NCBI RefSeq assembly: GCF_024580145.1
Contig: NZ_JANINI010000001.1
Location: 5,349 to 57,719, forward strand
DNA: 52,371 nt
Direction of reading: 5' to 3'
Origin: Methyloversatilis sp. XJ19-49
Lineage (GTDB): Bacteria; Pseudomonadota; Gammaproteobacteria; Burkholderiales; Rhodocyclaceae
Below are positions 9,187 through 40,495 of the stretch, piece after piece. How positions within the stretch are numbered: the stretch's first letter is position 1; each line of letters opens with the position of its first letter. Position numbers and translations under genes: made by a program. The notes under the pieces were generated by a model. That model searched no databases. It was not told the origin of the DNA and was given only the letters and a program-made list of their open reading frames with translations.

Positions 9187-10065
9187 TCAGCCGCCGATCG
9201 ACGCGCGCAGCGCAGCCAGCGATTCGAGGACGGACTCGGGTTTCTGGCTCGCCGGAATGTCGGCGAAGCAGAACTGACCGGCTTCGAGCACCGGCAGCGA
9301 CGCACCACTCCACAGTGCCTGACTGACATCGACGCCGGTCGACGACGGTGCCGCCACGCGCAGGCTCGGCGAAATCATCGCATCGAAGTCGGCCAGCGCA
9401 GGCGAAGGCAGCAGGGCATCGCCCTGCGGGCGCAGCGCGGTCGACCAGCGATAGTGTTTCGCGACATTGATCAGCGGGCGATAGCGTTCGACGTCGGTGT
9501 CGCCCATGCGGGCGTCGTCCGGATGTTCCTCCAGCAGGATGCCGCCGACCGGGTGAGCGGACACCGAACGGATCAGATCCGCCATGTACATGGCCGCATC
9601 CTCGATGCCGTCCGGATCCAGTTCGATGTCGGTGCGGCCTGCCAGCTCGTTGGCGTGAAACAGCCAGTGCTTGGGCGAGGGCATCGACAGCACCAGCGGC
9701 GTCTGGCCGCGCAGATTGGCGATGACCGCCTCGACGATCTCCGCCAGCAGCAGGCGCGGCTCGTCCTGCTCCAGCAGCTTGCGCAGCGGAAAGGAGAGCC
9801 GCTTCTTCGACCCGAGTTCGGCGCGCACCTCCGGGTGACGCACCAGCCATGAATCGAACAGCTCGCCGACCTCCACCACGGCCACGTCGGGCCGAAGCAG
9901 CCCCTGGGCCTGCGAGAAGTACGCCAGATACTGGGCACCGCTGAGCCATGGATCGCCGCCTTCACCCAGCAGCAGTCGCCGGGTGTAGGCGGAGGACTTC
10001 AACCAGACCTTGAGGCCGCCGCCGCCTTGCTGACCGGGCAGGATGTCGGCGAGGCGCTGACTCAT
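9187..10065 (-). CDS. Putative fifth subunit of acetophenone-carboxylase-like enzyme (ApcE position)
   Basis: A soluble 292-residue protein (~32 kDa), last gene of the carboxylase operon; its ATG overlaps the stop of the HyuB-like gene by four bases (ATGA). In Aromatoleum acetophenone carboxylase a ~34 kDa fifth subunit (epsilon) is needed for activity but is not in the core complex. Size and position here match it. The sequence has a loose uroporphyrinogen-decarboxylase-like look (alternating strands and helices, LVLSMPSPKHWLFHANEL, VGGILLEEHPDD). There is no membrane segment or signal peptide. Homology to ApcE is inferred from size and position. Confidence 0.6.
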   Translation of the reverse strand: MSQRLADILPGQQGGGGLKVWLKSSAYTRRLLLGEGGDPWLSGAQYLAYFSQAQGLLRPDVAVVEVGELFDSWLVRHPEVRAELGSKKRLSFPLRKLLEQDEPRLLLAEIVEAVIANLRGQTPLVLSMPSPKHWLFHANELAGRTDIELDPDGIEDAAMYMADLIRSVSAHPVGGILLEEHPDDARMGDTDVERYRPLINVAKHYRWSTALRPQGDALLPSPALADFDAMISPSLRVAAPSSTGVDVSQALWSGASLPVLEAGQFCFADIPASQKPESVLESLAALRASIGG

Positions 10066-12338
10066 TGCTTGTCGCTCCCCATCGCACCCAGCGCAGCCAG
10101 ACGGGCTTCCAGTTCGGCGATCCGCACGTCCTTCGGGTGCACCATGTAGTTCGGGCGCGGCGTGTTGGCGTCACGGAACTTGTCGGCGCTGCCCATGTAG
10201 AGCTTGGTGATGTCGTCGCCCCAGCAGCCGAAATACTGCAGATGCGACGGCGGCGTCGGCTTGTTCCAGCTCTTGATGAATTCGGCGTAGGGCACGCTGC
10301 GGGCGATCCGCGCCTTGCGTTCGGCATCGCGCGCAGCGTCGGTCGCTTCCTGGTTGATGGCCAGCGTCACCGGGTCGAACTTCACCTTGTACAGGCGTTC
10401 TGCAACGCCCGGCGAGATCAGGCCTTCCTCGATGTCGCGGATGACCCCGGCCGGGTCGCGCTCCAGCAGATCGCCGTAACCGGCGCCGGCACCCTGCGAA
10501 ATCATGAACAGCTCGCCGCGCTTCGAAATTTCGAAGCCCATGCCCATGTGATGGGTGGTGTAGGCGGCACCTTCGAACGGGCGCTCGTTCATGATTTCCT
10601 CGATCGAGTGCTTGAACTTCTCCGGCTCGTTGAGCAGGACGTCATAGACGTCGACACCCTTGACCTTCGACAGCGGATAGCAGCCGCAGGCGTAGCCGCC
10701 GAAAAGACCCTGGATCGGCGGAATCTTCGCGCCCTGGGTGGTGGTCATGAAGCCCCACTGTTCGGAATCCTTGGTCGCCACGATCATCGTGTAGCCCTGG
10801 CCGCCGCGGTACTTGCCCGGGGCGATGGCATCACGCGTCATCTTCTTCGACACCAGTTGCAGGAAGGGCACGTCTTCCTCGTTCAGCTCCTGCTCGCCGA
10901 TGTCCGCCATGGTGGCGAAGATCGGGGCGAGGGCATGCTCGCCGTCGGTGTCGGAACGGGCGCCGCCGCCCATGCCGTTCAGGTCGGCACACAGGTTGCC
11001 CAGCGTTTCGCCGTGCTGGCTGACTCCACCCCAGATGAAGGTGTTGATCATGTTGAAGGTCGGCGCATGCACCTTGGTGTACTTCTCCGGGCAGCTGTAG
11101 AGGAACTTGGCCACGGCGTGCTGACCGGCGGTGAAGCCGGTGAAGATGGACATCAGTGACTGCGAGTTCGGCGCGTCATACGACGAATTGACGATCGAAT
11201 GCGGATCGGTGATCACCTCGATCGGTGCGAACGCCGCCTGGCCGCGCGGCAGGTCCGGCCACACATAGCACAGGAAACACTGCGCCAGCATGCCCTTGAG
11301 GCCGGCCAGGATGGTGTTGGTGGCGCGATTGGTGAATTCCGGGCTGGAGCCGCGGAAGTCGAAGATCAGCCGGTCGCCGGTCTTGGTCAGCTTGCAGTTG
11401 ATCTTCACCACGCAGTTCTCGCGCAGCGTCGAGTCCTGGATGATGTAGGTGCGCACCGTCATGTCCGGCCATTCGCTGACCCGGCGCTTCACTTCGGCAC
11501 GGACGTTTTCCATCGTCGTGCGCAGCGTGGCGACCAGCGCTTCCGGGCCGTCGCTGTTCAGCGTTTCCTCGATGCGCTGCTTGATGCGCAGGCAGGCGAA
11601 AAGCTTCACCTTCATGTCTTCGTACTGCAGCTTGGGCTCGCGCACCGAGTTCTGCAGGAAGGTCAGGATGTCGCGCTTGATCTGGTAGTTCTCGACCACC
11701 TTGAACGGGCACATCTTGAGGCCTTCGTCGGACGGGCTTTCGGCCATCGACGGCATGCCGCCCGGCTCGATCGCGCCGTTCTCGCCCTCATGCACGGTGG
11801 ACGCCACCCAGCACACCAGCTTGCCCTTGTGGAAGATGGGCAGGATCATCGACTGGTCGGTGTTGTGGACGTTGCCGTAGCGCGAGTCGTTGTGGATGAA
11901 GCCGTCGCCGTCGCGTACGCCCACCGTCGGCTCGTTCACCCAGTTCTTGATGATGAACTTAATCGGGTGGTGCACCAGCGCCGAGAAGATCAGCACGCCG
12001 CCGGCGCTGGCGATCGCCAGGTCACCGGACGCGGAATACACGCCGGTGATGATGTCGCCCCACTTGGCGCCGGGTGCGGCACCCATCTGCTCGACCATTT
12101 CGTAGCCTTCGTCGCAGCCCGCCTGGATGCGGTCGCGGATCTTGGCCACGGTGTGCGCGTCGCTGATGGTCTTCATCGCGGCGTCTTCTTCGGCGCTGCG
12201 CGGCATCAGGTCGTGGTTCTGCATGATTTCCGGGTCGGGACCCAGAAACAGCGTGGTGTCGTTCAGGAACTTCTTGATCAGCGCAACTTCTTCGGCGCTC
12301 GGCATTTTCGGTGCCACCTTCGTGCTTGTCTCGCTCAT
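10062..12338 (-). CDS. HyuB-type carboxylase subunit (acetone/acetophenone carboxylase family)
   Basis: A 758-residue (~83 kDa) member of the hydantoinase B / acetone carboxylase alpha family. In this family HyuA-type subunits phosphorylate the enolised ketone and bicarbonate, and the HyuB-type subunit completes carboxylation. Family features include the N-terminal domain (IKKFLNDTTLFLGPDPEIM), a GDGFIHNDSRYGNVHNTDQ segment matching the metal/substrate domain of HyuB proteins, and a C-terminal KYRGGQGYTMIV motif. The start is taken at the ATG at 12338 (MSETSTKVAPKMPS), which has an AGGA eight bases upstream; an ATG five codons earlier lacks this. It lies 46 bases after the HyuA-like gene and overlaps the next gene by four bases. 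Confidence 0.85.
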   Translation of the reverse strand: MSETSTKVAPKMPSAEEVALIKKFLNDTTLFLGPDPEIMQNHDLMPRSAEEDAAMKTISDAHTVAKIRDRIQAGCDEGYEMVEQMGAAPGAKWGDIITGVYSASGDLAIASAGGVLIFSALVHHPIKFIIKNWVNEPTVGVRDGDGFIHNDSRYGNVHNTDQSMILPIFHKGKLVCWVASTVHEGENGAIEPGGMPSMAESPSDEGLKMCPFKVVENYQIKRDILTFLQNSVREPKLQYEDMKVKLFACLRIKQRIEETLNSDGPEALVATLRTTMENVRAEVKRRVSEWPDMTVRTYIIQDSTLRENCVVKINCKLTKTGDRLIFDFRGSSPEFTNRATNTILAGLKGMLAQCFLCYVWPDLPRGQAAFAPIEVITDPHSIVNSSYDAPNSQSLMSIFTGFTAGQHAVAKFLYSCPEKYTKVHAPTFNMINTFIWGGVSQHGETLGNLCADLNGMGGGARSDTDGEHALAPIFATMADIGEQELNEEDVPFLQLVSKKMTRDAIAPGKYRGGQGYTMIVATKDSEQWGFMTTTQGAKIPPIQGLFGGYACGCYPLSKVKGVDVYDVLLNEPEKFKHSIEEIMNERPFEGAAYTTHHMGMGFEISKRGELFMISQGAGAGYGDLLERDPAGVIRDIEEGLISPGVAERLYKVKFDPVTLAINQEATDAARDAERKARIARSVPYAEFIKSWNKPTPPSHLQYFGCWGDDITKLYMGSADKFRDANTPRPNYMVHPKDVRIAELEARLAALGAMGSDKQ

Positions 12339-12384
12339 TTTCAATCCTGTCATCTGTATGGGTTTGATCGGGATGCCCGCGCGT

Positions 12385-14520
12385 TCAGCCGCGCAGGAAC
12401 CAGGACGCACCCTGTTTCGCGGCCACGAAGGTCCAGCCCGGATCCACCAGGAAGGTCGTGACTTCGGAGGCGATGATGGCCGGGCCGGCGATCTGCATGC
12501 CGGGCTCGATCGCATCGCGGCTCCATACCGGGGTATCGAAGGCACTTTCGTGGCCCACGAACCAGCACTTGCGGCGGCTGGCCGGGGCGGGCGCAGCCGT
12601 ACGCGCTTCAGCAGGTACCGGCTTGATGTTCTCGAACTTCACCGTTTCGTGGCGCACGAAGGCGGCGACCCGGATGGTGTTGATGCGGATGCCCGCTTCC
12701 GGCGCCTGCGAGCCTTCGCCGAAGCGCTTGCCGTAGTCGTTGGAGAATTGCGTGATGATGGCCATCACGTCGCTCACGCCATTCACTTCATGCTGCGGGA
12801 TGACGGCGGTGGTCTGCACCAGCTGGTTGCCGTAGCGCATGTCCAGCTCGAGGCTGTGGCAGACGTCCTCACGCGGCACGCCCTGGCGCTGCAGATCCTG
12901 GGTGCCCAGTTCCTTCAGCTCGGCCACGATGGAATTGAAGCGGGCGTAGTCGTCGAACAGGTGACGCGTGTTCGAGTCGTAAAGCACCATGTAGAGCGAC
13001 TGTTCGTGGATGTGCAGCTGGTGCATGTTGCCGGCACCGACCGCCGAGAACACCGAACTGAGCGGCGGCGCAAGGATCTTGTCGATGCTCAGGTTCTGCG
13101 CGATGCCGCAGCAGTGCAGCGGACCGTTTCCACCGTAGGCCAGCATGGTGAATTCCTTCGGGTCGTAGCCCCGGGCGCGCAGTTCGGTGAACAGGCCGTT
13201 GGCCATGTTGGCATCGACCTTCTCGCGAATCAGCAGCGCCGCTTCGATCACCTCGCAGTCGAGGTCGTCGCACAGCGCGTCTTCGATGGCCGCCTTGGCA
13301 CGACGCGGATTCAGCGGAATCGACCCACCGGCGTAGTTGGCCGGGTCGAGATAGCCGAGCAGCAGGTCGGCGTCGGTCACGGTTGGATTCATGCCGCCGC
13401 GGTCGTAGCAGGCCGGGCCGGGGTCCGAGCCGGCCGACTCCGGACCGCACTTCACCGTGTTGTACATGCGGTCGTAGCTGGCGATCGAACCGCCACCGGC
13501 GCCCAGCGTGACCAGGTGAACCATCGGCACGGACACCAGCCAGCGGTCGATGACCGGGTTGAAGTCATAGTGCTTGATGCCGCCTTCGACGACGATGCCG
13601 ATGTCGTAGCTGGTGCCGCCCATGTCGGTCGCCACCACATTGCCCAGGTCGCACTGCATGGCCAGGTGTTCCGACGCCGCGATGCCCGACACCGGACCGG
13701 AGTGGATGGTCTGCAGCGCGTCGGTCGAATTCAGCTGTGCCATGCCGCCGGAGTTGTGGATCACCAGCATCGGCTTTTCGTACTTGTGGGCGCGCAGGTT
13801 CTGCTCGAGCGCCGACAGCGCGTGATACATGGTCGAGTGCAGGTAGCCGTCGATGACGGCCGAGGTGGCGCGCACGTACTCGCCCTTGCGACCGGCCACC
13901 TGGTGCGACAGGATGATCGGGATCGCGCCGAGCAGGTGCGACGGATATTCCTCGAGCAGGATTTCTTCGATGCGCTGCTCGTTCACCGGGTTGACCACGG
14001 AATTCACCAGTGCCACGACGATGATTTCGGCACCGCGGTCCACCAGTTCGCGGATCTGCGTGCGAACGTCTTCTTCGTCGAGCGGCATGACCAGCTCGCC
14101 TTGGAAGTCGAGGCGTTCGCGCACGCCGCGGATCATGTGTGCCAGCACCAGCGGCTCGGGGCGCTGCGCGTTCGGCAGATCCTGCTGGCCGAGATTGTCC
14201 AGCCCTTCACCGTAGCCGCGGGCACGGCTCAGCGGCACCGTGGCCTCGAAGCCGGCGGTCACCAGCATGCCGATCTTCGGGCCCTTGTGTTCGATCAGGG
14301 CATTGGTGCCGAGCGTCGTGGCGTAACGGACCGAATCGACCTGGGACAGGATTTCTTCCAGTTCCAGACCGAGCACGTGATAGGCCTTGCTCAGCGCTTC
14401 GTTGAAGCCGAGTGCAAGGTTGTGGTGGGTGGTCAGGGCCTTGGCCTCGATGTGCTTGCCGTCCCACACCACGAAACAATCGGTGAATGTGCCACCGATA
14501 TCAACTGATACGCGCCTCAT
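12385..14520 (-). CDS. HyuA-type ATPase subunit of acetophenone/acetone-type carboxylase (larger)
   Basis: A 711-residue (~77 kDa) protein of the hydantoinase A / oxoprolinase / acetone carboxylase beta family, with the ASKHA ATPase fold. Motifs are DIGGTFTD near residue 7 (phosphate 1), SVRYATTLGTNALIEHKGPK (family signature), ATDMGGTSYDIG near 295 (phosphate 2) and LAYGGNGPLHCCGIA near 475. It should activate substrate at ATP cost for the HyuB partner. A strong GAGGAG ribosome-binding site lies six bases before the ATG at 14520. It sits between the small zinc-ribbon gene (72 bases away) and the HyuB gene. Its length also fits AcxA of acetone carboxylase, so the acetone enzyme is the main alternative. 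The second HyuA gene in the operon argues for the five-subunit type. Confidence 0.85.
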   Translation of the reverse strand: MRRVSVDIGGTFTDCFVVWDGKHIEAKALTTHHNLALGFNEALSKAYHVLGLELEEILSQVDSVRYATTLGTNALIEHKGPKIGMLVTAGFEATVPLSRARGYGEGLDNLGQQDLPNAQRPEPLVLAHMIRGVRERLDFQGELVMPLDEEDVRTQIRELVDRGAEIIVVALVNSVVNPVNEQRIEEILLEEYPSHLLGAIPIILSHQVAGRKGEYVRATSAVIDGYLHSTMYHALSALEQNLRAHKYEKPMLVIHNSGGMAQLNSTDALQTIHSGPVSGIAASEHLAMQCDLGNVVATDMGGTSYDIGIVVEGGIKHYDFNPVIDRWLVSVPMVHLVTLGAGGGSIASYDRMYNTVKCGPESAGSDPGPACYDRGGMNPTVTDADLLLGYLDPANYAGGSIPLNPRRAKAAIEDALCDDLDCEVIEAALLIREKVDANMANGLFTELRARGYDPKEFTMLAYGGNGPLHCCGIAQNLSIDKILAPPLSSVFSAVGAGNMHQLHIHEQSLYMVLYDSNTRHLFDDYARFNSIVAELKELGTQDLQRQGVPREDVCHSLELDMRYGNQLVQTTAVIPQHEVNGVSDVMAIITQFSNDYGKRFGEGSQAPEAGIRINTIRVAAFVRHETVKFENIKPVPAEARTAAPAPASRRKCWFVGHESAFDTPVWSRDAIEPGMQIAGPAIIASEVTTFLVDPGWTFVAAKQGASWFLRG

Positions 14521-14592
14521 GCTATCTCCTCAATTCGTTCGTACTGGCGCGCGGCGCCCCTGCGGACCCGCTCGCCGGCAAACCATCCGGGT

Positions 14593-14991
14593 TCAGTGGC
14601 CGTGTCCCTTGTCCGCAGCGACTGCGGGGCCGACGACCGGCGTCTTCTGCTCGCCGCGGCTGGCCCACTGGGCCTTGAGTGCGGGCAGATCCGGTTCCAT
14701 GTCGTACAGCGGCGGATGGCCGGGGATGGCGTATTCGGTTTCCACCTGCGTGCCGCAGGACGGGCAGCAGAATTCGAGGATGCGCACCCATTCCGGATCG
14801 GGGCTGAAGGTGAAGCGGTACTTTTCCGGGTCGAGGATGGGCGGATGGATTTCGCGCGGGTCACGGTTGTGCACCAGCAGACCTTCCTTGTAGCTCTTCG
14901 TGGCCGAGCCGATCACGTGGTCGCACACGCGGCATTCCCAGTTCTCGGTGTCCAGGTCGATGCGCAGATATTCGGTCATCAGTACTTTCAT
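14593..14991 (-). CDS. Small zinc-ribbon subunit of acetophenone-type carboxylase
   Basis: A 132-residue (~15 kDa) protein related to the gamma subunit of acetone carboxylase. It has a CxxC pair at Cys20/Cys23 (WECRVCDHVIG) and a second at Cys76/Cys79 (EFCCPSCGTQVETEY), the pattern of a zinc ribbon. The ~15 kDa subunit of acetophenone carboxylase is reported to hold zinc, which fits. The C-terminus ends in a short His-containing tail (DKGHGH). AGGAAGG lies about 10 bases before the ATG at 14991; an ATG four codons later is possible. The gene starts five bases after the stop of the first HyuA gene, so the two are surely co-transcribed. Confidence 0.8.
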   Translation of the reverse strand: MKVLMTEYLRIDLDTENWECRVCDHVIGSATKSYKEGLLVHNRDPREIHPPILDPEKYRFTFSPDPEWVRILEFCCPSCGTQVETEYAIPGHPPLYDMEPDLPALKAQWASRGEQKTPVVGPAVAADKGHGH

Positions 14992-14996
14992 TTGTT

Positions 14997-16934
14997 TCAG
15001 CCCTTCCTGTTCAGCATGATGTCGCCCGCGTCGCTGATGACGAAACTCCAGCCATCAAGCACCCGGCAGGTGAAGTAGTCTTCTTCGAGAATGGCCGGAC
15101 CGGCGGCCTGGTCGCCCGCCTTGAGCTGGCTCAGCTTGTAGACCGGCACCTCGACGCGTCCCTTGTCGCGGATCAGCACCTTGCGCATTCCGTCGGCCTT
15201 GGCGGCGGCGCCCGCAACGAAGCGCGCGGTGTCGGCTGCGCTCGTACGCAGTGACTTGACCGCTCTGAGCTGCAGTTCGACCGCCAGGGCATTGGCCAGC
15301 GCAGCGGGCAGGGTGGGCGTGCCGGAGATGGCATGCGTGCTTTCGCTGCCGTCGCTGTTCTCGCCCACGAGCCAGGCTTCGACCTCATATTCGCCGGCGC
15401 CGAAGCCTTCGGCGAACATGTCGCGCGATGCCTTGATCTTCAGTGCTTCCAGCGCCGCGCCCAGTGCCTTGTCGCTGCGGTCGTTGAGCGCCACTGCGTA
15501 GCGCTGCGAGATATCGCAGGAACCGATGCCGAAGGCGCTGAACACGGCGGCCAGCTTCGGCACGGCCACCTTGTCGATGCCGGCCTTTTCGGCGACGCCG
15601 CAGGCATTCAGCGGGCCTGCGCCACCGAAGGCCAGCATCACGGTGTCCTTCGAAATCTTCGTGAAGCGGTGCAGTTCGACGGCGATCTTGTCTTCGTAGG
15701 CGTGCTCCATCTTCAACAGCGCTTCGTCGAGATCGACGCCGAGCGGCTCGGCGATCCTGACCTGGACGGCCGTTGCGGCACGGTCCAGATCGAGCGTCAT
15801 GCCGCCGCCGAAGTAGGACTTCGGATCGAACAGCCCACCCAGCAGGCAGGCGTCGGTGATGGTCGCTTCCTTGCCGCCACGGCCGAATGCCGCCGGTCCG
15901 GGCACGGCGCCGACGCTTTCCGGTCCGATGACGACGCGGCCGTTCACCACCTTGATGATGGAACTGCCACCGGCGCCCGCGCTCATGATTTCGCACAGCG
16001 GGAAGGACACGCTGATGCCTTCCACGTGACCGCGCTGCACCTCGGCGACCTTGCCGTCCAGACACTGGCCGATGTCGGTCGTCGTGCCGCCGACGTCGAT
16101 GCCGATCACGTCCGACATGCCGTACAGCCGGGCGAAGGACTTCATGCCTTCCATGCCGCCGCGCGGGCCGGAACTGTAGGTCTTGATCGCCACGGTCTTG
16201 GCCACGCGCGAAGCGTCGCCGTCATTGCGGAAGATCAGCAGCGGATTCTTCGTGCGGTAGTCACGCAGGCGCTTTTCCGCGTTGAACAGGAAGGCTTCCA
16301 TCGCCGGATGGAGGAAGGAATTGATCAGCGAGGTCCAGGTGCGGCGGACCATGTCGCGATCGGTGGACAGGTCGCTGCCGTACAGGATGGGCACCGCGCC
16401 GAGCAGGTGGCGCGGGTACTTGCGCAGCGCCACCTTCTTGAAGCAGGTTTCCACCGCCATGAAGTCGGCGCCGTCGAAGCTCACGACGAGGCGGCTGGCA
16501 CCCATCGCGGTCAGCTTGTTGATCGCCTTGACCACTTCGATTTCGGCACTGGCGCCGGTGACGTCTGCGCCGTCGAGGAACACCACGCGATCACCGACCA
16601 GCGCTTCGTACACTTCCGGGTCATGTTCGGCCAGACGGATCGGCAGGTCACGCGACTTGCCGTCGACAATCAGTCCCAGACGCGGGCCCTTGCGTTCGCA
16701 GATGGCATTCGTACCCTGCGTGGTCGAGTAGCGGATCAGGTCCACCTCCTCGAGCAGGCGCTTCACGTCCGCTGCGCCGTAGATCACTTCGGACGCTTTG
16801 TGAAGACCGTCGAAGAAGCATTTGCTGAGGTCATAGGGTGTGGTGAGCACCTTTGTCTTTTTGACGACGCCGTCCGCCATGATGCAGATATCGGTGAGCG
16901 TTCCACCGTTATCGATGTTGATGTGCACTGCCAT
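14997..16934 (-). CDS. HyuA-type ATPase subunit of acetophenone-type carboxylase (smaller), first gene of operon
   Basis: A 645-residue (~69 kDa) HyuA-family protein, matching the ~70 kDa first subunit of acetophenone carboxylase. ASKHA motifs are NIDNGGTLTDI near residue 6, IRYSTTQGTNAICERKGPRLG, IGIDVGGTTTDIG near 275 and MLAFGGAGPLNACGVAEKAG near 435. Two different HyuA subunits plus one HyuB distinguish this operon from three-subunit acetone carboxylase. The start ATG at 16934 follows a GGGAGG about ten bases upstream. The sigma-54 promoter at 17085-17100 implies a leader of roughly 140 nucleotides. It is the first gene of the five-gene operon. Confidence 0.85.
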   Translation of the reverse strand: MAVHINIDNGGTLTDICIMADGVVKKTKVLTTPYDLSKCFFDGLHKASEVIYGAADVKRLLEEVDLIRYSTTQGTNAICERKGPRLGLIVDGKSRDLPIRLAEHDPEVYEALVGDRVVFLDGADVTGASAEIEVVKAINKLTAMGASRLVVSFDGADFMAVETCFKKVALRKYPRHLLGAVPILYGSDLSTDRDMVRRTWTSLINSFLHPAMEAFLFNAEKRLRDYRTKNPLLIFRNDGDASRVAKTVAIKTYSSGPRGGMEGMKSFARLYGMSDVIGIDVGGTTTDIGQCLDGKVAEVQRGHVEGISVSFPLCEIMSAGAGGSSIIKVVNGRVVIGPESVGAVPGPAAFGRGGKEATITDACLLGGLFDPKSYFGGGMTLDLDRAATAVQVRIAEPLGVDLDEALLKMEHAYEDKIAVELHRFTKISKDTVMLAFGGAGPLNACGVAEKAGIDKVAVPKLAAVFSAFGIGSCDISQRYAVALNDRSDKALGAALEALKIKASRDMFAEGFGAGEYEVEAWLVGENSDGSESTHAISGTPTLPAALANALAVELQLRAVKSLRTSAADTARFVAGAAAKADGMRKVLIRDKGRVEVPVYKLSQLKAGDQAAGPAILEEDYFTCRVLDGWSFVISDAGDIMLNRKG

Positions 16935-17084
16935 TCCCCATTACCTCCCACCATCCATTCGTGGATCAAGACCGCTTTTAGAAGATCAGAAATCGATACC
17001 GACGCCGCATGGCCTGTCCGCCGGTCGATGACATCGATGCCGCGGACAGGACCCGTGTGACAGTGGATTTCCCGACAGCAGCGA

Positions 17085-17100
17085 CGCAAGCGCTGTGCCA
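17085..17100 (-). promoter_or_regulatory. Sigma-54 (-24/-12) promoter of the carboxylase operon
   Basis: On the minus strand it reads TGGCACAGCGCTTGCG. This matches the RpoN consensus TGGCAC-N5-TTGC, with GG and GC exactly ten bases apart. Transcription should start about 12 bases past the GC, near 17073, running into the carboxylase operon. Confidence 0.9.
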
Positions 17101-17115
17101 TACGGCGATTTATTT

Positions 17116-17128
17116 CAAGATATTGATT
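17116..17128 (-). promoter_or_regulatory. IHF binding site
   Basis: The minus strand reads AATCAATATCTTG, a perfect match to the IHF consensus WATCAANNNNTTR, inside an unusually AT-rich patch (about 17105-17145). It lies between the sigma-54 promoter and the upstream palindrome, where DNA bending would bring the activator to RpoN polymerase. Confidence 0.7.
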
Positions 17129-17182
17129 TATTAGGGAATAAGAAACTCGGGCTGACGCGGGGAGCCAGACGATGGTCCGCTA

Positions 17183-17200
17183 ACCGGACGATCGTCCGGT
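17183..17200. promoter_or_regulatory. Perfect 18-bp palindrome, likely activator (UAS) site
   Basis: ACCGGACGATCGTCCGGT is its own reverse complement. A related imperfect copy (GACGATGGTCCG) starts about 20 bases before it. The palindrome centres about 120 bases upstream of the predicted start, the usual place for an enhancer of a sigma-54 activator. The AcoR/AcxR-like regulator at 22214-24310 is the natural candidate ligand. Confidence 0.65.
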
Positions 17201-17405: not shown

Positions 17406-17948
17406 TCAGCGGATGAAGCGTTGCAGCACGGCGCGGAAGACCGGTGTGTTCGATTGTTCGAGCCATTCGAACGCCACCATTTCGCGGCTGACGATCTCGG
17501 CGCCGTTCTGCTGCATGCGCTGCAACGCCAGCGCCTTGTCCCGGGCGCGTCGGGAGCCGACCGCGTCTTCCACGACGAAAACCTGGCCACCCATGGCCAG
17601 CCGGTCCAGCACGGTCTGCTGCACGCAGACGTGAGCCTCGGTGCCGACGACGATCCATTGTCTTCGTCCGGCTTCGGGTGCGCCGAGCAGGCTGCCTTCG
17701 GCGAGCGCCGAGAAGTGCGTCTTCTCGACGATGCAACCGTCCGGAATACGGGCCCGCAGCCCGGCTTCGGTCACCCCGAGGCCCTGTGGATACTGCTCGG
17801 TCGCCAGTATCGGTACGCCGATCGCCTGTGCCACATCGACCATCCAGGTCGCGTTCTCCAGCACGGTCCGGCCGTCATCGATGGCCGGCAGCAGCCGTCC
17901 CTGAAGGTCGATGACCAGAAGCAGGGAGTCGCAAGGTTTGATGCGCAT
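17406..17948 (-). CDS. Isochorismatase-family cysteine hydrolase
   Basis: A 180-residue single-domain protein of the isochorismatase/nicotinamidase superfamily, cytoplasmic. The triad can be read directly: Asp in LLLVIDLQGRLLP (about residue 14), Lys in IVEKTHFSAL (about 75) and nucleophile Cys in VGTEAHVCVQQTVLDRL (about 107). The family hydrolyses amides, vinyl ethers and related bonds, and the substrate cannot be told from sequence. It starts 72 bases after the 4-hydroxybutyryl-CoA-dehydratase-like gene on the same strand and is probably co-transcribed with it, under TetR control. The ATG at 17948 matches the family N-terminus. Confidence 0.88.
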   Translation of the reverse strand: MRIKPCDSLLLVIDLQGRLLPAIDDGRTVLENATWMVDVAQAIGVPILATEQYPQGLGVTEAGLRARIPDGCIVEKTHFSALAEGSLLGAPEAGRRQWIVVGTEAHVCVQQTVLDRLAMGGQVFVVEDAVGSRRARDKALALQRMQQNGAEIVSREMVAFEWLEQSNTPVFRAVLQRFIR

Positions 17949-18020: not shown

Positions 18021-19649
18021 TCAGTCATCGGTCGGGAGGGTGCGGGGCAGCGGCACCATCACGGCCTGCCCGGGCTGGCTGCAGCCCGCGTCGCAGCAGC
18101 GGCCGGGCTGCCGGTTGCGCGTGATCGAACGCGTTTCATCAGCCAGCACACCGCGATCGAGCAGACGTTCGACCAGATCGACCTTGTCGCCGACCGGGTA
18201 GTTGCGCCAGATTTCCTGCTTCAGCGCGGCCGGCGATCCGCCGCCGTGCAGGCTGATCAGCGAATACCAGCCGCCCTGGTAGGACGCGGTCAGGTCTTCC
18301 ATGAAGCGCGCGACCTCGATCCGCTTGTCGTACGGGATGTCCGGATTGGCGCGCAGCACCTCGGCCAGCGTCGCGGCCGTGGCCGGGTTGTGGTCTTCGT
18401 CCGGGCCGGGCAGGGCGACGATCAGGCCACCCGACACTTCGTGCGCCAGCCGGTGCATGTCGTAGATCTGGGTGGACAGCAGCAGCTTGCCGATATTGGC
18501 GAACACCGGCTCCGGCATGAAGGTGTGCGAGTACGGATCGGCCGCCGCATAGACGCTGGCCGCCACGCCGCAGGCGTAGAACCCTTCTGTGATCTTGATC
18601 AGTTCGACCATCGGGTCGCGCAGATTGGCCTTGCGGTCCGGGTCCAGACCGTTGGCTTCGCACATCAGCGCGGCGGCGCCGATCAGCAGGTCGCCAAAAC
18701 CGGCGCGCGCCGCGATGCAGCTGTGGCGGTGATGGGTGGCGTAGTTGTAGGTGACGGCGCCCGAGTGTTCCCACTCGCCAGCCAGGAACACGCGCTCCCA
18801 GGGCACGAACACCTGGTCGAAGATGACCACGCCGGTGGACTGTCCGTAGCGGCGCGAAAACAGCGGTGAGCCGTGTTCGGGTTTCTCGCCCGGGCGCCCG
18901 GCGGGTCGGGCGACGATGGTGATGCCCGGCGCGTCGACCGGCACCGCGCAGCACACGGCAAAGTCGGCGTCCGCTTCCGTCATGTTGCGCGACGGCATGA
19001 CCAGGAACTCATGCATGTAGGGCGCACCGGTGACGATGGCCTTGGTGCCGGAAATGACGATGCCGCGGGCGTTGCGCTCGACGATGTGCAGATAGACGTC
19101 CGGATTCGACTGCTGGTGCGGCCGCTGGCTGCGGTCGCCCTTGGCGTCGGTCATCGCGATGCCCAGCGTCAGGTCTTCGTCCTGCACGCGCTGAAGATAG
19201 TCGGCGAAGCGGGCGCCGTATTCGGTGTTGCCCCGCGCGTCATCCAGTCGCGCCACCGCCTGACCGATGCCATTGAGTGCGTCATGCGCCAGATAGCGCT
19301 GCGCGCAGCCTGTTTCCTGACACAGGATGCGCACCGCTTCGAGCTTGTTCAGCAGGTCGCCGGACGACTCGTTGATGTGCAGCATGCGATTGACCGTGCG
19401 GCCGCTGCGCGTCTGCAATGCCGTCATCAGCGGGGCCCTGGCCGGGTCGTGCGCGAAGTCGTAGCTCACTGCGAGCGCGTTGATGCCGGGCTGCAGCGAC
19501 GGCGCATCGACGACCGAATCGATCCGCTGGCCATCGACGTACACGGTGGGGGCGTACCTGCGCAGGGACTCACGGTAGTCCTGTCCGGTCATCAGCGTGG
19601 CGGTGCCGGGTGGCGCGTGCTTGTGCATGGGAAGTGTGGTGTGTTCCAT
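18021..19649 (-). CDS. 4-hydroxybutyryl-CoA dehydratase / HpaB-family protein lacking a full Fe-S ligand set
   Basis: A 542-residue protein of the HpaB/AbfD superfamily (flavin-binding, acyl-CoA-dehydrogenase fold). It follows AbfD along most of its length: MTGQDYRESLRR, VSYDFAHDP, DAKGDRSQRPHQQSNPDVYL, VVIFDQVFVPWERVF, and HGGGSPAA near the end. From my memory of AbfD, its [4Fe-4S] ligands are Cys99, Cys103, His292 and Cys299. Here the first Cys (ETGCAQRY) and the His (HHRHS) remain. The second Cys position is Tyr and the last is Ala. The C-terminus adds a Cys-rich tail (GRCCDAGC). A flavin-only reaction is therefore plausible. The start is uncertain: ATG at 19649, ATG at 19628, or TTG at 19667, which would put the operator inside the gene. 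I prefer 19649. Confidence 0.75.
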   Translation of the reverse strand: MEHTTLPMHKHAPPGTATLMTGQDYRESLRRYAPTVYVDGQRIDSVVDAPSLQPGINALAVSYDFAHDPARAPLMTALQTRSGRTVNRMLHINESSGDLLNKLEAVRILCQETGCAQRYLAHDALNGIGQAVARLDDARGNTEYGARFADYLQRVQDEDLTLGIAMTDAKGDRSQRPHQQSNPDVYLHIVERNARGIVISGTKAIVTGAPYMHEFLVMPSRNMTEADADFAVCCAVPVDAPGITIVARPAGRPGEKPEHGSPLFSRRYGQSTGVVIFDQVFVPWERVFLAGEWEHSGAVTYNYATHHRHSCIAARAGFGDLLIGAAALMCEANGLDPDRKANLRDPMVELIKITEGFYACGVAASVYAAADPYSHTFMPEPVFANIGKLLLSTQIYDMHRLAHEVSGGLIVALPGPDEDHNPATAATLAEVLRANPDIPYDKRIEVARFMEDLTASYQGGWYSLISLHGGGSPAALKQEIWRNYPVGDKVDLVERLLDRGVLADETRSITRNRQPGRCCDAGCSQPGQAVMVPLPRTLPTDD

Positions 19650-20399: not shown

Positions 20400-21686
20400 T
20401 CAGCCGCCGCCGCGAACCGGTGCGGGGCGCGCCGAAAAGCGCCGGGCCTGAACGACCCAGCCGTCTGCCTGCAGGCCGCCGGCTTGCGCGACCGGCATTC
20501 TCTGCGACAGCCAACAGCGCGTCGCCATGAAAGGGTTGGCGGCCACCGCGCGCGCGGCGGCTGCCTGCGGCGGAAGATTGGCAAGCATCGTGCGGATGAG
20601 GTCGCGCTCGTCTTCACCGATGTCGCGCGTGATGAACACCAGACGCCCGTGGCGATCGTCGAACGGGCCGCCTGCCGGCCACGCGGGCAGGCGCAGCGGC
20701 GGGTAGGCCACGTCCTGCACGCACTGGATCACCTGCGGCAGGTCGTCGCCGGCCACATTCATCAAGCCTTTCACCCGCAGCAGACGCGGGCCCCAGGTCT
20801 CCAGGATGCGGCCCATGGCGACTGAAAACCCGTACCAGGGAACCGGTGCTTCGAAGCGGACGACGAAGCTCGATACCGAATCGTCGTGGCGCGCCGACGT
20901 TGCGCGCGCCGGTGCCGGCTGCGTGGTCCAGCGCAGCGGAGCCGCGGCCTGTGCGGCCCGGGCGCTTTCATCGAGCACGCGTTCCTCACCCAGCCACGCC
21001 GCCACATCCGGCAGCTTGCCGGCGGTGGAATAGATGCCGCTGCCGAACAGCTGGTCGGGCTCGATCCGCCCATGGCGCACGTCCAGACGCTGCGCGCCCG
21101 GATTGAGCATGTCGATCCGCGCATCGAGCGCCGTTCGGCTGTCGGCATCGGCCAGGTCGCCCTTGGTGATCAGCAGGCGGTCGGCCATGGCGATCTGGCG
21201 CAGCGCCTCCTGATGGCGGTCGATCTGCTCCAGGCCGTGTGTTGCATCGACCGCGGTCAGCACGCTGTCGCACACGAAACGTGCGGCGATGAAGCGCTCT
21301 TCCATCAGCGTGTAGATGACCGGCACCGGGTCGGCCAGACCGGTGGTTTCGATGAGCACCCGCGTGACCGGCGGAATTTCGCGCTTCGAACTTCTGAGGT
21401 GCAGCTGCCTGAGTGCCGCCACCAGATCGCCCTGCACGCTGCAGCACAGGCAGCCGGAATCAAGCAGAACGGTGGTGTCGTCGAGTCTTTCCACCAGATG
21501 GTGGTCGATGCCCACCTCGCCGAATTCGTTGATCAGGACCGCAGTGCCGGCCATCGCCGGATGCTTCATCAGGCGGTTCAGAAGGGTCGTCTTGCCGGCA
21601 CCGAGAAAGCCGGTCAGCAGGCTCACCGGGATCCGGTCCACCGGGGCGGAACCGGTGCGGGCAGTCGATGGAACACGAGAGGTCAA
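20400..21686 (-). CDS. COG0523 (CobW/P47K) metallochaperone GTPase
   Basis: A 428-residue G3E-family GTPase. It has a Walker A GFLGAGKTTLLNRL (about residue 26), the metal-binding CxCC motif in DSGCLCCSVQGDL (about 80), an ETTGLADP switch region, an ITKGD base-recognition motif and a C-terminal CobW_C domain. COG0523 proteins deliver zinc, cobalt, iron or other metals to client enzymes. No B12 or urease or nitrile-hydratase genes are nearby, so the zinc-ribbon and metal-dependent carboxylase subunits are the best client candidates. The start is a TTG at 21686 with GGAG seven bases upstream; no in-frame ATG precedes the P-loop. Confidence 0.88.
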   Translation of the reverse strand: MTSRVPSTARTGSAPVDRIPVSLLTGFLGAGKTTLLNRLMKHPAMAGTAVLINEFGEVGIDHHLVERLDDTTVLLDSGCLCCSVQGDLVAALRQLHLRSSKREIPPVTRVLIETTGLADPVPVIYTLMEERFIAARFVCDSVLTAVDATHGLEQIDRHQEALRQIAMADRLLITKGDLADADSRTALDARIDMLNPGAQRLDVRHGRIEPDQLFGSGIYSTAGKLPDVAAWLGEERVLDESARAAQAAAPLRWTTQPAPARATSARHDDSVSSFVVRFEAPVPWYGFSVAMGRILETWGPRLLRVKGLMNVAGDDLPQVIQCVQDVAYPPLRLPAWPAGGPFDDRHGRLVFITRDIGEDERDLIRTMLANLPPQAAAARAVAANPFMATRCWLSQRMPVAQAGGLQADGWVVQARRFSARPAPVRGGG

Positions 21687-22213: not shown

Positions 22214-24310
22214 ATGAGTTCGACCACTTCAGCCCAGCTGTTTTCCGAGCCGGAAAACGATCATCAGGTGATGGCGTCGTGGGAGCGTTTCCTGAATGGC
22301 GACGAGGGCGGTGCGGATGCCCTGCGCCGCCTGATCGATGATTCATGGCGACGCTGCCAGGGCGCCAGCGTCGATCCGGCGATCTATCAGGCGCCGCCGC
22401 CGATCAAGGAAAACTCGCTGCATTCGCTGCAGACCGAATGCAGCGAACTGCTGACGGCGAGCACGCCGGTGATGGCTGCGGCGCGCGACTTCCTCGCGGA
22501 AACCGGTACGGTCATGGTGCTGACCGACCAGAGCGGCACGATCCTGAATCTCGAAGGCGACATGTCGACGCGTGGCGCAGCGGAGGACGTGCATCTGCTG
22601 TCCGGCGCCAACTGGAGTGAACTCGCCTGCGGCACCAACGCGATCGGTACCGCGCTGGCGGTCGGGCATGCCGTGCAGATCCACTCGGCGGAGCACTACT
22701 GCGCGGGCATCAAGCGCTGGTCCTGCGCGGCCACCGTGGTGCGCGACCCGTACGACAAGTCCATCCTCGGTGTCGTCGATGTGTCCGCCCTGACCGAGTC
22801 CTACAACCGTCTCAGTCTCGCGCTGGTGCTCGCGACGGCAGGCCGCATCGAAAACCGGCTGGCCAAGCTGGAACTGGACATCCGTTACCGCCTGCTCGAA
22901 GAGTGCGTCGCCCGGCTGTCCAGCCGGACCACCGATGGCGTCATCGTGTTCGACCGTCGCGGGCGTGCCATCAAGTCCAACGGGCGCTCGTCGGCGATCA
23001 TTTCCGATCTGGGCATCGACGCGGCCGCCGTCGATCCGGAAGGGCTGTCATCGCTGAGCTTGCGCTGGAACAAGCGAAAGGATTCGCCGGACGATCTGCC
23101 CGACTGGATACGCCGGGAGTGGGTCGAGCCCGTCATCGAGAATGGCGAGCACATCGGCAGTGTGCTGACCCTGCCGAGCCGGCGCGGATCGATGCTGGCA
23201 GGCAGTCGCCGCAGCAGTCTGCCTGCTGCCAGCGGCGACGCATCCGACAAGCGCGGTTTCGAGAGGATCATCGGTCAATCCGATGCCCTGATGCAGGCAG
23301 TCAGCCGCGCCCAGCAGTTGGCCAAGTCCCGCGTGCCGGTGCTGCTGCTGGGAGAAACCGGCGTCGGCAAGGATGTGTTCGCGCGCTGCATCCATGAATC
23401 GGGGACGTCGGCGGGCGCGCCATTCGTGGCGTTGAATTGCGGTGGCTTTTCGCGCGAGCTGCTGTCGAGCGAGCTGTTCGGTTACGCTGAGGGCGCCTTC
23501 ACCGGTGCCCGGCAGGGCGGGGCCATCGGCAAGATAGAAGCGGCCAGCGGCGGCACCCTCTTTCTCGATGAAATCGGTGAAATGCCGCTCGATCTGCAGC
23601 CCCACTTCCTGCGCGTGCTAGAGGAGGGCGAGGTCTATCGAATCGGTGAAAACAAGCCGAGAAAGGTGAGCTTCCGGCTCATTGCCGCAACCAATCGCGA
23701 CCTGCGCAAGGAAATCCAGTCCGGCGGATTCCGCATGGACCTGTTTTACCGGGTGGCCGTCACCAGCATCAACATCCCTTCGCTGCGTGACCGCACCGAC
23801 GATATCGCGCTGCTCGGCGAGTATTTCCTGACGCAACTGTCGCACCGGCACGACATGCCCAGGCGGACCTTGTCACCTGCCGTCCTGAGCGTATTGCAGC
23901 GGCACGCCTGGCAGGGAAACATCCGCGAATTCCGCAACGTGATGGAAAGCATGCTGCTCATGTCCGGGAACACGGTTCTGGACGTGAGCGATCTTCCGCC
24001 TCATGTGCTGTCGCCACCACTGTCATCCGCATCAAGCCCTTCAGCGGCGACCGTTGTACCGGCCGGATCCGTCGCGGCAATGACGGTTGCGGACGGCGCC
24101 ACGCCATTGACCGGCATGGAGAATGCCGAACGGGAAGTGATCTTGAACGCCATCATCAAGCATGGCGGAAACATGACCGCCGCTGCGCGCGAAGCGGGCA
24201 TCGCCAAGAGCACGCTCTACGTGAAGCTCAAGCGCTTCGGCATCGACGAGCGGCTTAAACGCTCCGGTCTGGACGGCCTCACGCGTGACCGGCAGGACAT
24301 GCCGGCCTGA
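22214..24310 (+). CDS. AcoR/AcxR-like sigma-54-dependent activator
   Basis: A 698-residue enhancer-binding protein. The N-terminal part has the AcoR-type SWRRC motif and a GAF-like sensor (about 65-210: TVMVLTDQSGTILNLEGD, ACGTNAIGTALAVGHAVQIHSAEHY). A second PAS-like segment follows (about 230-330). The AAA+ domain has GETGVGKDVFARCIH, the sigma-54 contact loop GAFTGA, and Walker [17 protein letters not shown]-terminal Fis helix-turn-helix (NMTAAAREAGIAKSTLYVKLKRFGI) completes it. This is the architecture of activators of acetoin and acetone carboxylase operons. It is the most likely activator of the sigma-54 promoter at 17085-17100, about 5 kb away. The ATG at 22214 is fixed by GGGAGG four bases upstream. 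Downstream, 24311-24588 holds only a small hairpin (24313-24327) and no gene. Confidence 0.92.
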   Translation: MSSTTSAQLFSEPENDHQVMASWERFLNGDEGGADALRRLIDDSWRRCQGASVDPAIYQAPPPIKENSLHSLQTECSELLTASTPVMAAARDFLAETGTVMVLTDQSGTILNLEGDMSTRGAAEDVHLLSGANWSELACGTNAIGTALAVGHAVQIHSAEHYCAGIKRWSCAATVVRDPYDKSILGVVDVSALTESYNRLSLALVLATAGRIENRLAKLELDIRYRLLEECVARLSSRTTDGVIVFDRRGRAIKSNGRSSAIISDLGIDAAAVDPEGLSSLSLRWNKRKDSPDDLPDWIRREWVEPVIENGEHIGSVLTLPSRRGSMLAGSRRSSLPAASGDASDKRGFERIIGQSDALMQAVSRAQQLAKSRVPVLLLGETGVGKDVFARCIHESGTSAGAPFVALNCGGFSRELLSSELFGYAEGAFTGARQGGAIGKIEAASGGTLFLDEIGEMPLDLQPHFLRVLEEGEVYRIGENKPRKVSFRLIAATNRDLRKEIQSGGFRMDLFYRVAVTSINIPSLRDRTDDIALLGEYFLTQLSHRHDMPRRTLSPAVLSVLQRHAWQGNIREFRNVMESMLLMSGNTVLDVSDLPPHVLSPPLSSASSPSAATVVPAGSVAAMTVADGATPLTGMENAEREVILNAIIKHGGNMTAAAREAGIAKSTLYVKLKRFGIDERLKRSGLDGLTRDRQDMPA

Positions 24311-28401: not shown

Positions 28402-29011
28402 TCCGCGGCTCGACCCGCAGTGGGACCCGCTGGAACTGCTGCCCGACGCGCGCATTGCGTGGGGGCTGACCGGATCCGGTCACTTCCTGAAGGAGTCTCT
28501 CGAACTGGCGGACGCCATGAACGGCATCGACCTCTTCATGACGCGCGCCGGTGAAGAAGTGCTGAACATGTACGGCTATCCGCTGGCCGACATGAAGAAG
28601 CGCTATCGCATCTTCCGCGACAACACCGCGAGCGCGGCGCCGGTCGGGCTGTTCTATCAGGGCCAGTACCACACCGTGGTGATCGCGCCGGCGACGTCGA
28701 ACACCGTGGCCAAGTGCGCGCTGGGCATTTCCGATACGCTGGTGAGCAATATCTTTGCGCAGGCCGGCAAGCTGCGCATTCCGACCATCGTGTTCGCGTG
28801 CGACAGCGAGCCGGTGGTGATCACCGAATCGCCCAGCGAATGGGTGACGCTTTACCCGCGCGCCATCGACCTCGCACACACCGCGACCCTCGGGACCTTC
28901 GAACACGTGACCGTGGTCGACAGCGTCGAGGCGCTGAACGCAGCGCTCAAGCGAAGATTGGCATGCCTGAAAACGACTCCGCCCGCTCCGTCGAACGCGT
29001 CCTCTTCCTGA
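28391..29011 (+). CDS. Flavoprotein of archaeal-type C1 cluster (DmrB/DmrX-like)
   Basis: A 206-residue member of the flavoprotein (DFP) family, cytoplasmic. FMN-binding features are an N-terminal Rossmann-like GLTGSGHFLKES and APATSNTVAKCALGISDTLVSN in the middle. In methylotrophs this protein is encoded with tetrahydromethanopterin genes and is thought to reduce dihydromethanopterin to H4MPT. The ATG at 28391 overlaps the end of the activator gene, and the last 49 bases overlap the next gene. A start a few codons later is possible. Confidence in the family is high; the reductase role is known from related systems and is inferred here. Confidence 0.82.
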   Translation: MASDPRLDPQWDPLELLPDARIAWGLTGSGHFLKESLELADAMNGIDLFMTRAGEEVLNMYGYPLADMKKRYRIFRDNTASAAPVGLFYQGQYHTVVIAPATSNTVAKCALGISDTLVSNIFAQAGKLRIPTIVFACDSEPVVITESPSEWVTLYPRAIDLAHTATLGTFEHVTVVDSVEALNAALKRRLACLKTTPPAPSNASSS

Positions 29012-30468: not shown

Positions 30469-31028
30469 TCTGGGAAACCATACTCACCACTGTCGACGTG
30501 CAGGGTCGCACCCACATCACGCCATTGGGCATCCGCGAGGAGCGCGGACTCACCGTGCTGTCGCCGTTCCGCCCGTCCTCCACATTGGACAACGTGCTCG
30601 CCAACCGTGTGGCAGTGGTCAATTTCACCGACGATGTGCGCGTGTTCGCCGGGTGTCTGACCGGCCGGCGCGACTGGCCGGTGCAGCCCGGTGAAGAAGT
30701 TGCCTGCGCGCGGCTGGTCAACACGCTGGCCCATCGCGAACTGGAGCTGGTCGAGGTCGAGGAAGACGATGTCCGCCCGCGTCTTTACTGCCGCACCGTG
30801 CACGAGGCCGGTCACGGTGCCTTCCCCGGTTTCAACCGCGCCCGATCGGCGGTGGTGGAAGCCGCCATCCTGGTCAGCCGCCTGCACATGCTGCCCATCG
30901 AGAAGATCGATGCCGAACTGGCTTACCTGCAGATTGCCATCGACAAGACCGCCGGCCCGGCCGAACGCGAGGCCTGGGGCTGGTTGATCGAGAAGATCAA
31001 CGCCCATCGGGCCGGAGTGCAGCCTTGA
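30465..31028 (+). CDS. DUF447-family protein of the H4MPT cluster
   Basis: A 187-residue protein of the DUF447 family, with a flavin-reductase-like split barrel in the N-terminal half (TPLGIREERGLTVLSPFRPSSTLDNVLANRVAVVNFTDDVRVFAGCL) and helices after. It is conserved with H4MPT/methanofuran biosynthesis genes in methylotrophs and archaea, but its reaction is not known to me. It overlaps its upstream neighbour by four bases (ATGA). Its stop TGA overlaps the TTG start of mfnB. Confidence 0.85.
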   Translation: MIWETILTTVDVQGRTHITPLGIREERGLTVLSPFRPSSTLDNVLANRVAVVNFTDDVRVFAGCLTGRRDWPVQPGEEVACARLVNTLAHRELELVEVEEDDVRPRLYCRTVHEAGHGAFPGFNRARSAVVEAAILVSRLHMLPIEKIDAELAYLQIAIDKTAGPAEREAWGWLIEKINAHRAGVQP

Positions 31029-39601: not shown

Positions 39602-39669
39602 GAAATGGCGGCCTTAAAGAGGGGGGCCGCGGCAGCGAAATACCCTCACAAAAATCGGAGGAGACAAGC

Positions 39670-40464: not shown

Positions 40465-40495
40465 CTCACTGACGCAGCTGGCTGGGAGATGAGTG

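Follow-up and report, generated by a model that had tools for sequence, protein, structure and literature searches.

A five-subunit operon of the acetophenone carboxylase type in Methyloversatilis sp. XJ19-49 as a candidate carboxylase for short aliphatic ketones

Which ketone would a five-subunit carboxylase of the acetophenone carboxylase (Apc) type serve in a bacterium that looks like a methylotroph? The question is raised by an operon of Methyloversatilis sp. XJ19-49 (assembly GCF_024580145.1, contig NZ_JANINI010000001.1), in which five open frames lie at positions 9187-16934 on the minus strand of a 52,371-nucleotide stretch (hereafter the window, in whose numbering coordinates are given). 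In transcription order these are apcA, apcB, apcC, apcD and apcE, with gaps of 5, 72 and 46 bp along the way; the last two genes overlap by 4 bp. With a probability of roughly 60%, we take the operon to encode a carboxylase of five subunits that acts on short aliphatic ketones and combines an Apc-like build with a role like that of acetone carboxylase (Acx); acetone or butanone would be the most likely substrate. An earlier reading of the letters alone (the sequence-only reading) had described five tightly linked genes on one strand, coding for 645, 132, 711, 758 and 292 amino acids (aa), and all five were confirmed where it had placed them:

14997-16934, minus strand: apcA-type HyuA, 645 aa, counterpart of Apc alpha' and predicted bicarbonate kinase
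14593-14991, minus strand: apcB-type small subunit, 132 aa, with conserved cysteines C20, C23, C76 and C79
12385-14520, minus strand: apcC-type HyuA, 711 aa, counterpart of Apc alpha and predicted ketone kinase
10062-12338, minus strand: apcD-type HyuB, 758 aa, with Acx-type metal ligands H157, D160 and H182 (numbering of a 757-aa query)
9187-10065, minus strand: apcE-type fifth subunit, 292 aa, a barrel resembling uroporphyrinogen decarboxylase (URO-D) in its model

The same reading had called the architecture five-subunit and Apc-type, a call borne out by the gene order and by structural matches led by Apc. Pfam assigns Hydant_A_N/Hydantoinase_A to two of the products, Hydantoinase_B to one and Acetone_carb_G to one. 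Among solved structures, all four core subunits are nearest Apc of Aromatoleum aromaticum EbN1 (5L9W), ahead of Acx and the hydantoinases: apcA matches 5l9w_b best (297.7 bits) and then 5l9w_B (210.7), apcB matches 5l9w_C (110.6, versus 35.7 for Acx gamma), apcC matches 5l9w_B (553.8, versus 297.9 for Acx beta and 279.6 for 5-oxoprolinase), and apcD matches 5l9w_A (277.9, versus 133.2 for Acx alpha). The operon shares with the EbN1 enzyme the apcABCDE order, matching subunit sizes, two different HyuA proteins, a HyuB with metal ligands, a small subunit with four cysteines (present in 102 of 102 ApcB-type rows, none of them Acx) and, as modelled, a URO-D-like fifth subunit. Motifs DNGGT, DVGGT and GPESVGAVPGPA are carried by apcA, and the pattern [RK]ER[ILVM]DxxG, formed after a published fingerprint of Apc alpha (PMC5214803), occurs in apcC and not in apcA. 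Acx, in contrast, has three subunits instead of five, and the copy in this host has large subunits only 26%–29% identical to those of the operon and a small subunit (~168 aa) 36 aa longer. The gene set recurs among 85 loci (84 fetched plus the window) that were chosen for holding such a HyuB, some of them cut by contig ends: HyuA and the fifth subunit were each called in 82 of them and the small subunit in 78, with genes in unannotated loci called by our own codon-score caller. Loci were grouped as A1, A2, B and C by identity to the window, a grouping that phylogenetic trees confirm in part.

By position and modelled fold, apcE is a putative counterpart of Apc epsilon, without detectable sequence similarity. 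The 292-aa product had no sequence match in Pfam, NCBIfam or the PDB, and neither did a 48-row profile in the PDB, though the EbN1 epsilon sequence was in the copy searched; a profile-profile comparison matched it strongly to nine clade B fifth subunits (E 1.4e-66). An AlphaFold model built from the 48-row alignment reached a mean predicted local distance difference test (pLDDT) score of 91.8, and Foldseek against the PDB ranked 9fou, the Apc epsilon structure released in December 2025, first by E-value (7.4e-8; template modelling score, TM, 0.62), followed by uroporphyrinogen decarboxylases at TM 0.56–0.65, some of them equal to or above 9fou in TM. In a loose Pfam scan of ten fifth subunits, one, a relative of canonical Apc epsilon, reached URO-D (E 4.5e-5; 23.1 bits for a cut-off of 23.9).

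The same core subunits are nonetheless distant from acetophenone carboxylase proper. Scores against the NCBIfam Apc equivalogs fall far below the cut-offs for ApcA to ApcD (343.5 of 1250, 125.9 of 250, 590.5 of 1500 and 323.9 of 1500 bits, respectively). Across 199 genomes of the family, a single ApcD exceeds the 1500 cut-off (1502.5 bits) and three more reach 1390–1466, as compared with 324 for the window. One of these four high-scoring loci (L146), whose ApcE matches 9fou over its full length, served as the EbN1 reference; identities of apcA to apcD to its subunits are 32%, 50%, 39% and 30%. Seven ketone-pocket residues of Apc alpha have been named (PMC5214803), and five of them are changed in apcC, with P285 and I333 kept. 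In all 97 apcC rows compared (the window, A1, A2 and B, some genomes being represented twice), L81 is replaced by T, N282 by H, and F281 by I, V or M; Q344 gives way to H (95 rows) or Y (two), and T345 to L (96) or M (one). The metal ligands of Acx are His150, Asp153 and His175, plus a fourth, Glu89 (PMC5543143); equivalents of the first three, which are those compared here, are identical in 110 of 110 HyuB rows, the window included.

Trees with small reference sets, of the kind the sequence-only reading had proposed, agreed with its classification and did not place both HyuA proteins and the HyuB within the Acx or oxoprolinase clades, the outcome that would have spoken against it: the Acx rows do not take in the HyuB, and the HyuA tree separates the two HyuA proteins, each lying on the side of its Apc counterpart. 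In the HyuB tree, the four EbN1-type rows are split off by a 100/100 branch, the five Acx rows form a clade of their own (100/100) that excludes the window, and the window is grouped with 27 other clade A and B rows (98/99). In the 47-row HyuA tree, apcA groups with EbN1-type ApcA, and apcC stands on the side of EbN1-type ApcC. Across the trees, EbN1-type rows are set apart by branches of 100/99 to 100/100, with the window in another supported clade. Both the HyuB and HyuA trees carry long-branch warnings, and on the apcC side the EbN1-type ApcC rows are joined (99/97) by the Acx beta of the host, whose branch is long (3.97); because of this grouping, the apcC of the window is not especially near Apc in the tree.

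A small aliphatic ketone is suggested as the substrate because the regulator, together with part of the neighborhood in relatives, resembles that of acetone carboxylase. Two features of the window bear on regulation:

17085-17100, minus strand: sigma-54 -24/-12-like promoter TGGCACAGCGCTTGC, 166 bp upstream of apcA
22214-24310, plus strand: AcxR-type sigma-54-dependent activator (Pfam Sigma54_activat, GAF and HTH_8), the probable operon regulator

Acx controls comprised 21 loci, all from one family. The sensor part of the regulator is 50%–57% identical to regulators beside nine of these loci and 37%–39% identical to two more, and it found no match beside any of the four EbN1-type Apc loci. The host itself has a regulator on its acx contig, some 10 kb away from acx, with a sensor 59% identical to this one; the second GAF regulator of the window reaches 27.5% across 229 residues. 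In a quick tree of 62 regulators, with several forks supported at 82–86, the 11 Acx-linked regulators form two groups nested among apc-linked ones, and the window falls in a ten-member apc-linked group. The site at 17100-17085 has the highest sigma-54-like score of the window when both strands are scanned. Sites scoring at least 9 occur upstream of apcA in 54 of 74 loci, where ~3.4 would be expected from single-base shuffles, and sites at or above the same score also occur upstream of acxA in 20 of 21 loci. For acx of Cupriavidus metallidurans, a sigma-54 promoter and the activator AcxR have been reported, and a personal communication cited there names acetone or 2-propanol as inducer (PMC2864759). 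The operon is thus similar to AcxABC/AcxR systems (Xanthobacter, Cupriavidus and the host itself) in its sensor, its promoter-like site and its H/D/H ligands, and the activator at 22214-24310 probably regulates it. The idea that this activator is also the sole controller of the host acx genes was rejected, as the acx contig has an AcxR-type regulator of its own.

Neighborhoods were compared by tblastn at a minimum identity of 35% across 61 A1 loci, many of them on contigs ending within the flank; nine further loci (L033-L041), partly from the same genomes as named loci, were left out of these counts and kept in the residue counts. A1 operons adjoin a CobW GTPase (46 loci), a sigma-54 regulator (38), CoA-transferase subunit A (17), an F7-type (12) or F28-type (3) thiolase, an acyl-CoA ligase (11), an alcohol dehydrogenase (8), a ZIP transporter (9), an extra RpoN (12), and MMPL (9), YCF48 (9), DUF1302 (10) and DUF1329 (9) genes. 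The 21 Acx loci share part of this set: a sigma-54 regulator (13), CoA-transferase subunit A (7), an alcohol dehydrogenase (3, two of them at 76%–77% identity), and MMPL, YCF48, DUF1302 and DUF1329 (10 each); CobW, ligase, thiolases, ZIP and RpoN were each found beside none of the 21. At the same threshold, the four EbN1-type loci yielded one CobW-type and one DUF1329 match and none of the other neighbor types.

The sequence-only reading had noted that the usual pathway partners were absent, which holds for the window, since no AMP-binding ligase was found among its 48 open reading frames (ORFs) scanned with Pfam, spurious ones included. The inference that partners are simply missing nevertheless needs correction, because CoA-transferase, ligase, thiolase and alcohol dehydrogenase genes adjoin a minority of relatives; a CoA-transferase pair is also present elsewhere in the host. 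In a Geobacter metagenome-assembled genome (MAG; L102), the order is apcABCDE, cobW, CoA-transferase A/B, thiolase and alcohol dehydrogenase, and in a Hydrogenophaga MAG (L081) it is alcohol dehydrogenase, regulator, apcABCDE, ZIP, cobW and BktB. NCBIfam identifies, above cut-off, the transferase of the former as 3-oxoacid CoA-transferase subunit A and the F28-type thiolase of the latter as BktB. The L081 dehydrogenase is closest in the PDB to 5yln and 4cpd (specificity unstated) and then to several isopropanol or secondary-alcohol dehydrogenases, all of them zinc alcohol dehydrogenases. The short-chain dehydrogenases of the window (ORFs 38839-40410 and 40493-41236) sit between polyhydroxyalkanoate genes. 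Upstream gene trains in Burkholderiales relatives were dropped as catabolic candidates, as by their first residues they look ribosomal or queuosine-related (no family search was made). In alphaproteobacterial loci, the extra RpoN-type gene lies within the apc/cobW/regulator cluster, as though a dedicated sigma factor moved together with the operon; clustering recovers 11 such loci (L053, L076, L078, L087, L088, L090, L096, L099, L100, L104 and L116), and tblastn 12 of 61.

The host genome also holds a separate AcxABC on contig C44, with a 3-oxoacid-type CoA-transferase A/B pair beside it and the MMPL/YCF48/DUF1302/DUF1329 module on its flank. A small-subunit search of 49 A1 genomes returned an AcxC-type match in 21, an ApcB-type match only in 27 and none in one, so that 28 have no AcxC-type match, Acidovorax facilis and Xanthobacter autotrophicus AM5 among them; the dividing line was set by us (AcxC at or above 174 bits, ApcB at or below 141.5), and draft genomes can miss genes. 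The A1 enzyme is therefore often, not always, found without Acx, and the notion of clade A as a universal replacement for Acx was rejected.

Three further minus-strand genes lie between the operon and its probable regulator:

17406-17948, minus strand: isochorismatase-family hydrolase (Pfam Isochorismatase), a lineage-specific neighbor
18021-19628, minus strand: HpaB/AbfD-family flavoprotein-like gene (best PDB matches 1u8v and 6vjr), a lineage-specific neighbor
20400-21641, minus strand: CobW/COG0523-type GTPase with a CxCC motif (Pfam cobW and CobW_C), a probable metallochaperone

The CobW protein has the features by which COG0523 members are recognized, namely the GTPase domain, the CxCC motif (here CLCC) and CobW_C. 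Its association with A1 as compared with Acx loci (46 of 61 versus 0 of 21) gives a Fisher p of 3e-10, ignoring relatedness, and the protein probably supplies a metal. By comparison, two acetone carboxylases expressed in Escherichia coli were metallated without a chaperone (PMC10865871). The isochorismatase and HpaB-like genes are probably not part of the enzyme. They were rejected as pathway enzymes, since among the 61 A1 loci they were found in three, namely that of the window and those of two Methyloversatilis MAGs, and the sigma-54 site separates both from apcA. The HpaB-family product is closest to 4-hydroxybutyryl-CoA dehydratase/vinylacetyl-CoA isomerase, and two of what we take to be the four iron-sulfur ligands of the dehydratase (presumably C103 and C299) align with Y and A.

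Taken by analogy with Apc and Acx, the enzyme would be ATP dependent and presumably biotin independent, converting a short aliphatic methyl ketone to a 3-oxoacid. ApcC would phosphorylate the ketone to an enol phosphate and ApcA would phosphorylate bicarbonate, with the two intermediates meeting at the metal site of ApcD. The CobW-type GTPase nearby would probably be a metal supplier. ApcB would be a zinc-binding structural subunit, and ApcE, docking as a URO-D-like barrel, may close the complex or aid formation of the C–C bond. The 3-oxoacid would then be activated by a CoA-transferase and cleaved by a thiolase, with transcription from the sigma-54 promoter controlled by the AcxR-type activator. 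BktB presumably prefers C5 3-oxoacyl-CoA, so the BktB-type thiolase beside one tested locus, and two similar ones, hints at butanone.

Several observations weigh against a carboxylase for short aliphatic ketones. A profile-profile comparison of apcE with four EbN1-type epsilon sequences gave a probability of 4.6, that is, no match, and two of three bicarbonate-pocket residues of apcA differ from Apc (E248 to S and K281 to D). The window itself yielded no CoA-transferase, ligase or thiolase, and among A1 loci CoA activation genes adjoin 18 of 61 and thiolases 15 of 61. Neither thiolase nor acyl-CoA ligase was found beside any of the 21 Acx loci, so in this respect the context does not resemble that of Acx. 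MMPL (33%) and YCF48 (27%) relatives lie, below threshold, near two of the four EbN1-type loci, and because such distant relatives also adjoin Apc, the membrane module is no proof of acetone. CobW is found in 0 of 21 A2 and 1 of 12 B loci, for which reason it was rejected as a need of the whole branch. Finally, a second acetone carboxylase in this host would need a different substrate or different conditions to escape redundancy, as one contig already carries AcxABC together with a CoA-transferase pair and an AcxR-type regulator.

Other substrates and reactions were weighed against the same evidence. The membrane genes (MMPL, YCF48, DUF1302 and DUF1329) beside some A1 and A2 loci would also suit a longer or branched hydrophobic ketone, such as 2-alkanones or isoprenoid and terpenoid methyl ketones, as would the acyl-CoA ligases of relatives, which come nearest a long-chain-type model without reaching its cut-off, their thiolases of the thiolase-domain/lipid-transfer kind, and hydrocarbon-exposed hosts such as Neorhizobium petrolearium, which came from soil contaminated with petroleum. 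However, the same membrane set flanks Acx in 10 of 21 loci, including that of the host, and the sensor is AcxR-like, so we regard this alternative as unlikely. A substrate like that of the Aromatoleum enzyme, namely an aryl alkyl ketone such as acetophenone, hydroxyacetophenone or a lignin-derived relative, would be in keeping with the Apc-first structural matches and identical gene order, and the ligase and thiolase beside some relatives, found in 0 of 21 Acx loci, recall the benzoylacetate-CoA ligase described after apc in A. aromaticum (PMC4729919). Set against this are the widely missed equivalog cut-offs, the five changed pocket residues, the separate clade, and a regulator of an Acx-linked kind whose sensor has no counterpart beside the four Apc loci; an aryl ketone is accordingly judged rather improbable, and of the earlier guess of another aryl or alkyl ketone, the alkyl half is the better supported.

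Membership of the HyuA/HyuB superfamily also brings caprolactamase, N-methylhydantoinase and 5-oxoprolinase into consideration, and apcC scores 420 bits against the caprolactamase alpha model (cut-off 1000). These enzymes hydrolyze without carboxylation, and their structures give weaker matches (at most 279.6 bits for apcC and 79.1 for apcD). An ATP-dependent hydrolase of this kind with accessory subunits is very improbable: the gamma, alpha' and epsilon subunits present here are absent from two-gene hydrolase clusters as described with the Apc core structure (PMC5214803), three Acx metal ligands are kept, and some relatives have a 3-oxoacid CoA-transferase and thiolase. The preferred reading remains a short aliphatic ketone. 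A bolder extension of it is possible, although we hold it at less than even odds: the operon may represent a third kind of ketone carboxylase, an aliphatic-ketone enzyme of Apc build that entered an acetone regulon and passed horizontally among Proteobacteria and on to Geobacter, the sole such carboxylase in many genomes, metallated by a dedicated COG0523 GTPase and aided in C–C bond formation by a URO-D-like barrel, that is, a decarboxylase fold run in reverse. That such a kind has so far been filed as "acetophenone carboxylase-like" is equally tentative.

The distribution of the operon suggests horizontal spread. Clade A HyuB (at least 85% identity) was found in 10 of 199 family genomes, that of the window included, and in one of six same-genus genomes with any match; in a class-wide sample, apcC matched at E of 1e-200 or less in five of 368 other genomes, at 56%–77% identity. 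Among the best 80 of 417 confirmed stretches, from which the named relatives are taken, the nearest are Methyloversatilis MAGs (97% ApcD identity), and others include Methyloversatilis, Zoogloea, Azotobacter, Xanthobacter, Cupriavidus, Acidovorax, Celeribacter, Novosphingobium and Acinetobacter genomes and Geobacter MAGs. Close relatives occur in Rhizobiales too, a plasmid of N. petrolearium gives a 90% match, and distant kin are present on Rhodococcus plasmids and in one haloarchaeon. The nearest relatives, together with a run of genes at 28391-31744 on the plus strand (a flavoprotein, DUF6513, DUF447 and a 4-(hydroxymethyl)-2-furancarboxaldehyde-phosphate (4-HFC-P) synthase), which we take to be of the methanopterin-biosynthesis kind, agree with the earlier view of the host as a methylotroph.

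More distant Apc-like operons were also recovered. One genome (G017) holds six (L042, L047, L049, L050, L052 and L149), one near-canonical (C74) and five others (C6, C59, C64, C40 and C23). In a third Apc-like clade, the small-subunit gene is separated from that of the second HyuA by an unassigned gene of 267–286 aa (L051:10609-11412, without a Pfam match, and L052:6916-7776). On a plasmid of the haloarchaeon Halorientalis marina (L056), genes distantly resembling apcABCD are accompanied by a 295-aa gene in the fifth position; two AMP-binding genes precede the set, and a thiolase gene lies downstream of it.

When the Apc core structure was published, the Apc branch had one biochemically characterized member, and its authors advised caution in assigning function to more distant ones (PMC5214803). 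Our literature search, to which subscription-journal papers were mostly out of reach, recognized no study of the present operons. The AcxR-type switch and the partly Acx-type neighbors give this clade of about 60 operons one testable substrate class. They also raise the question of why a ketone carboxylase would have its own CobW GTPase beside it, though two acetone carboxylases acquire their metal without one in E. coli (PMC10865871), and that of what role a URO-D-like barrel may play in the fifth subunit.

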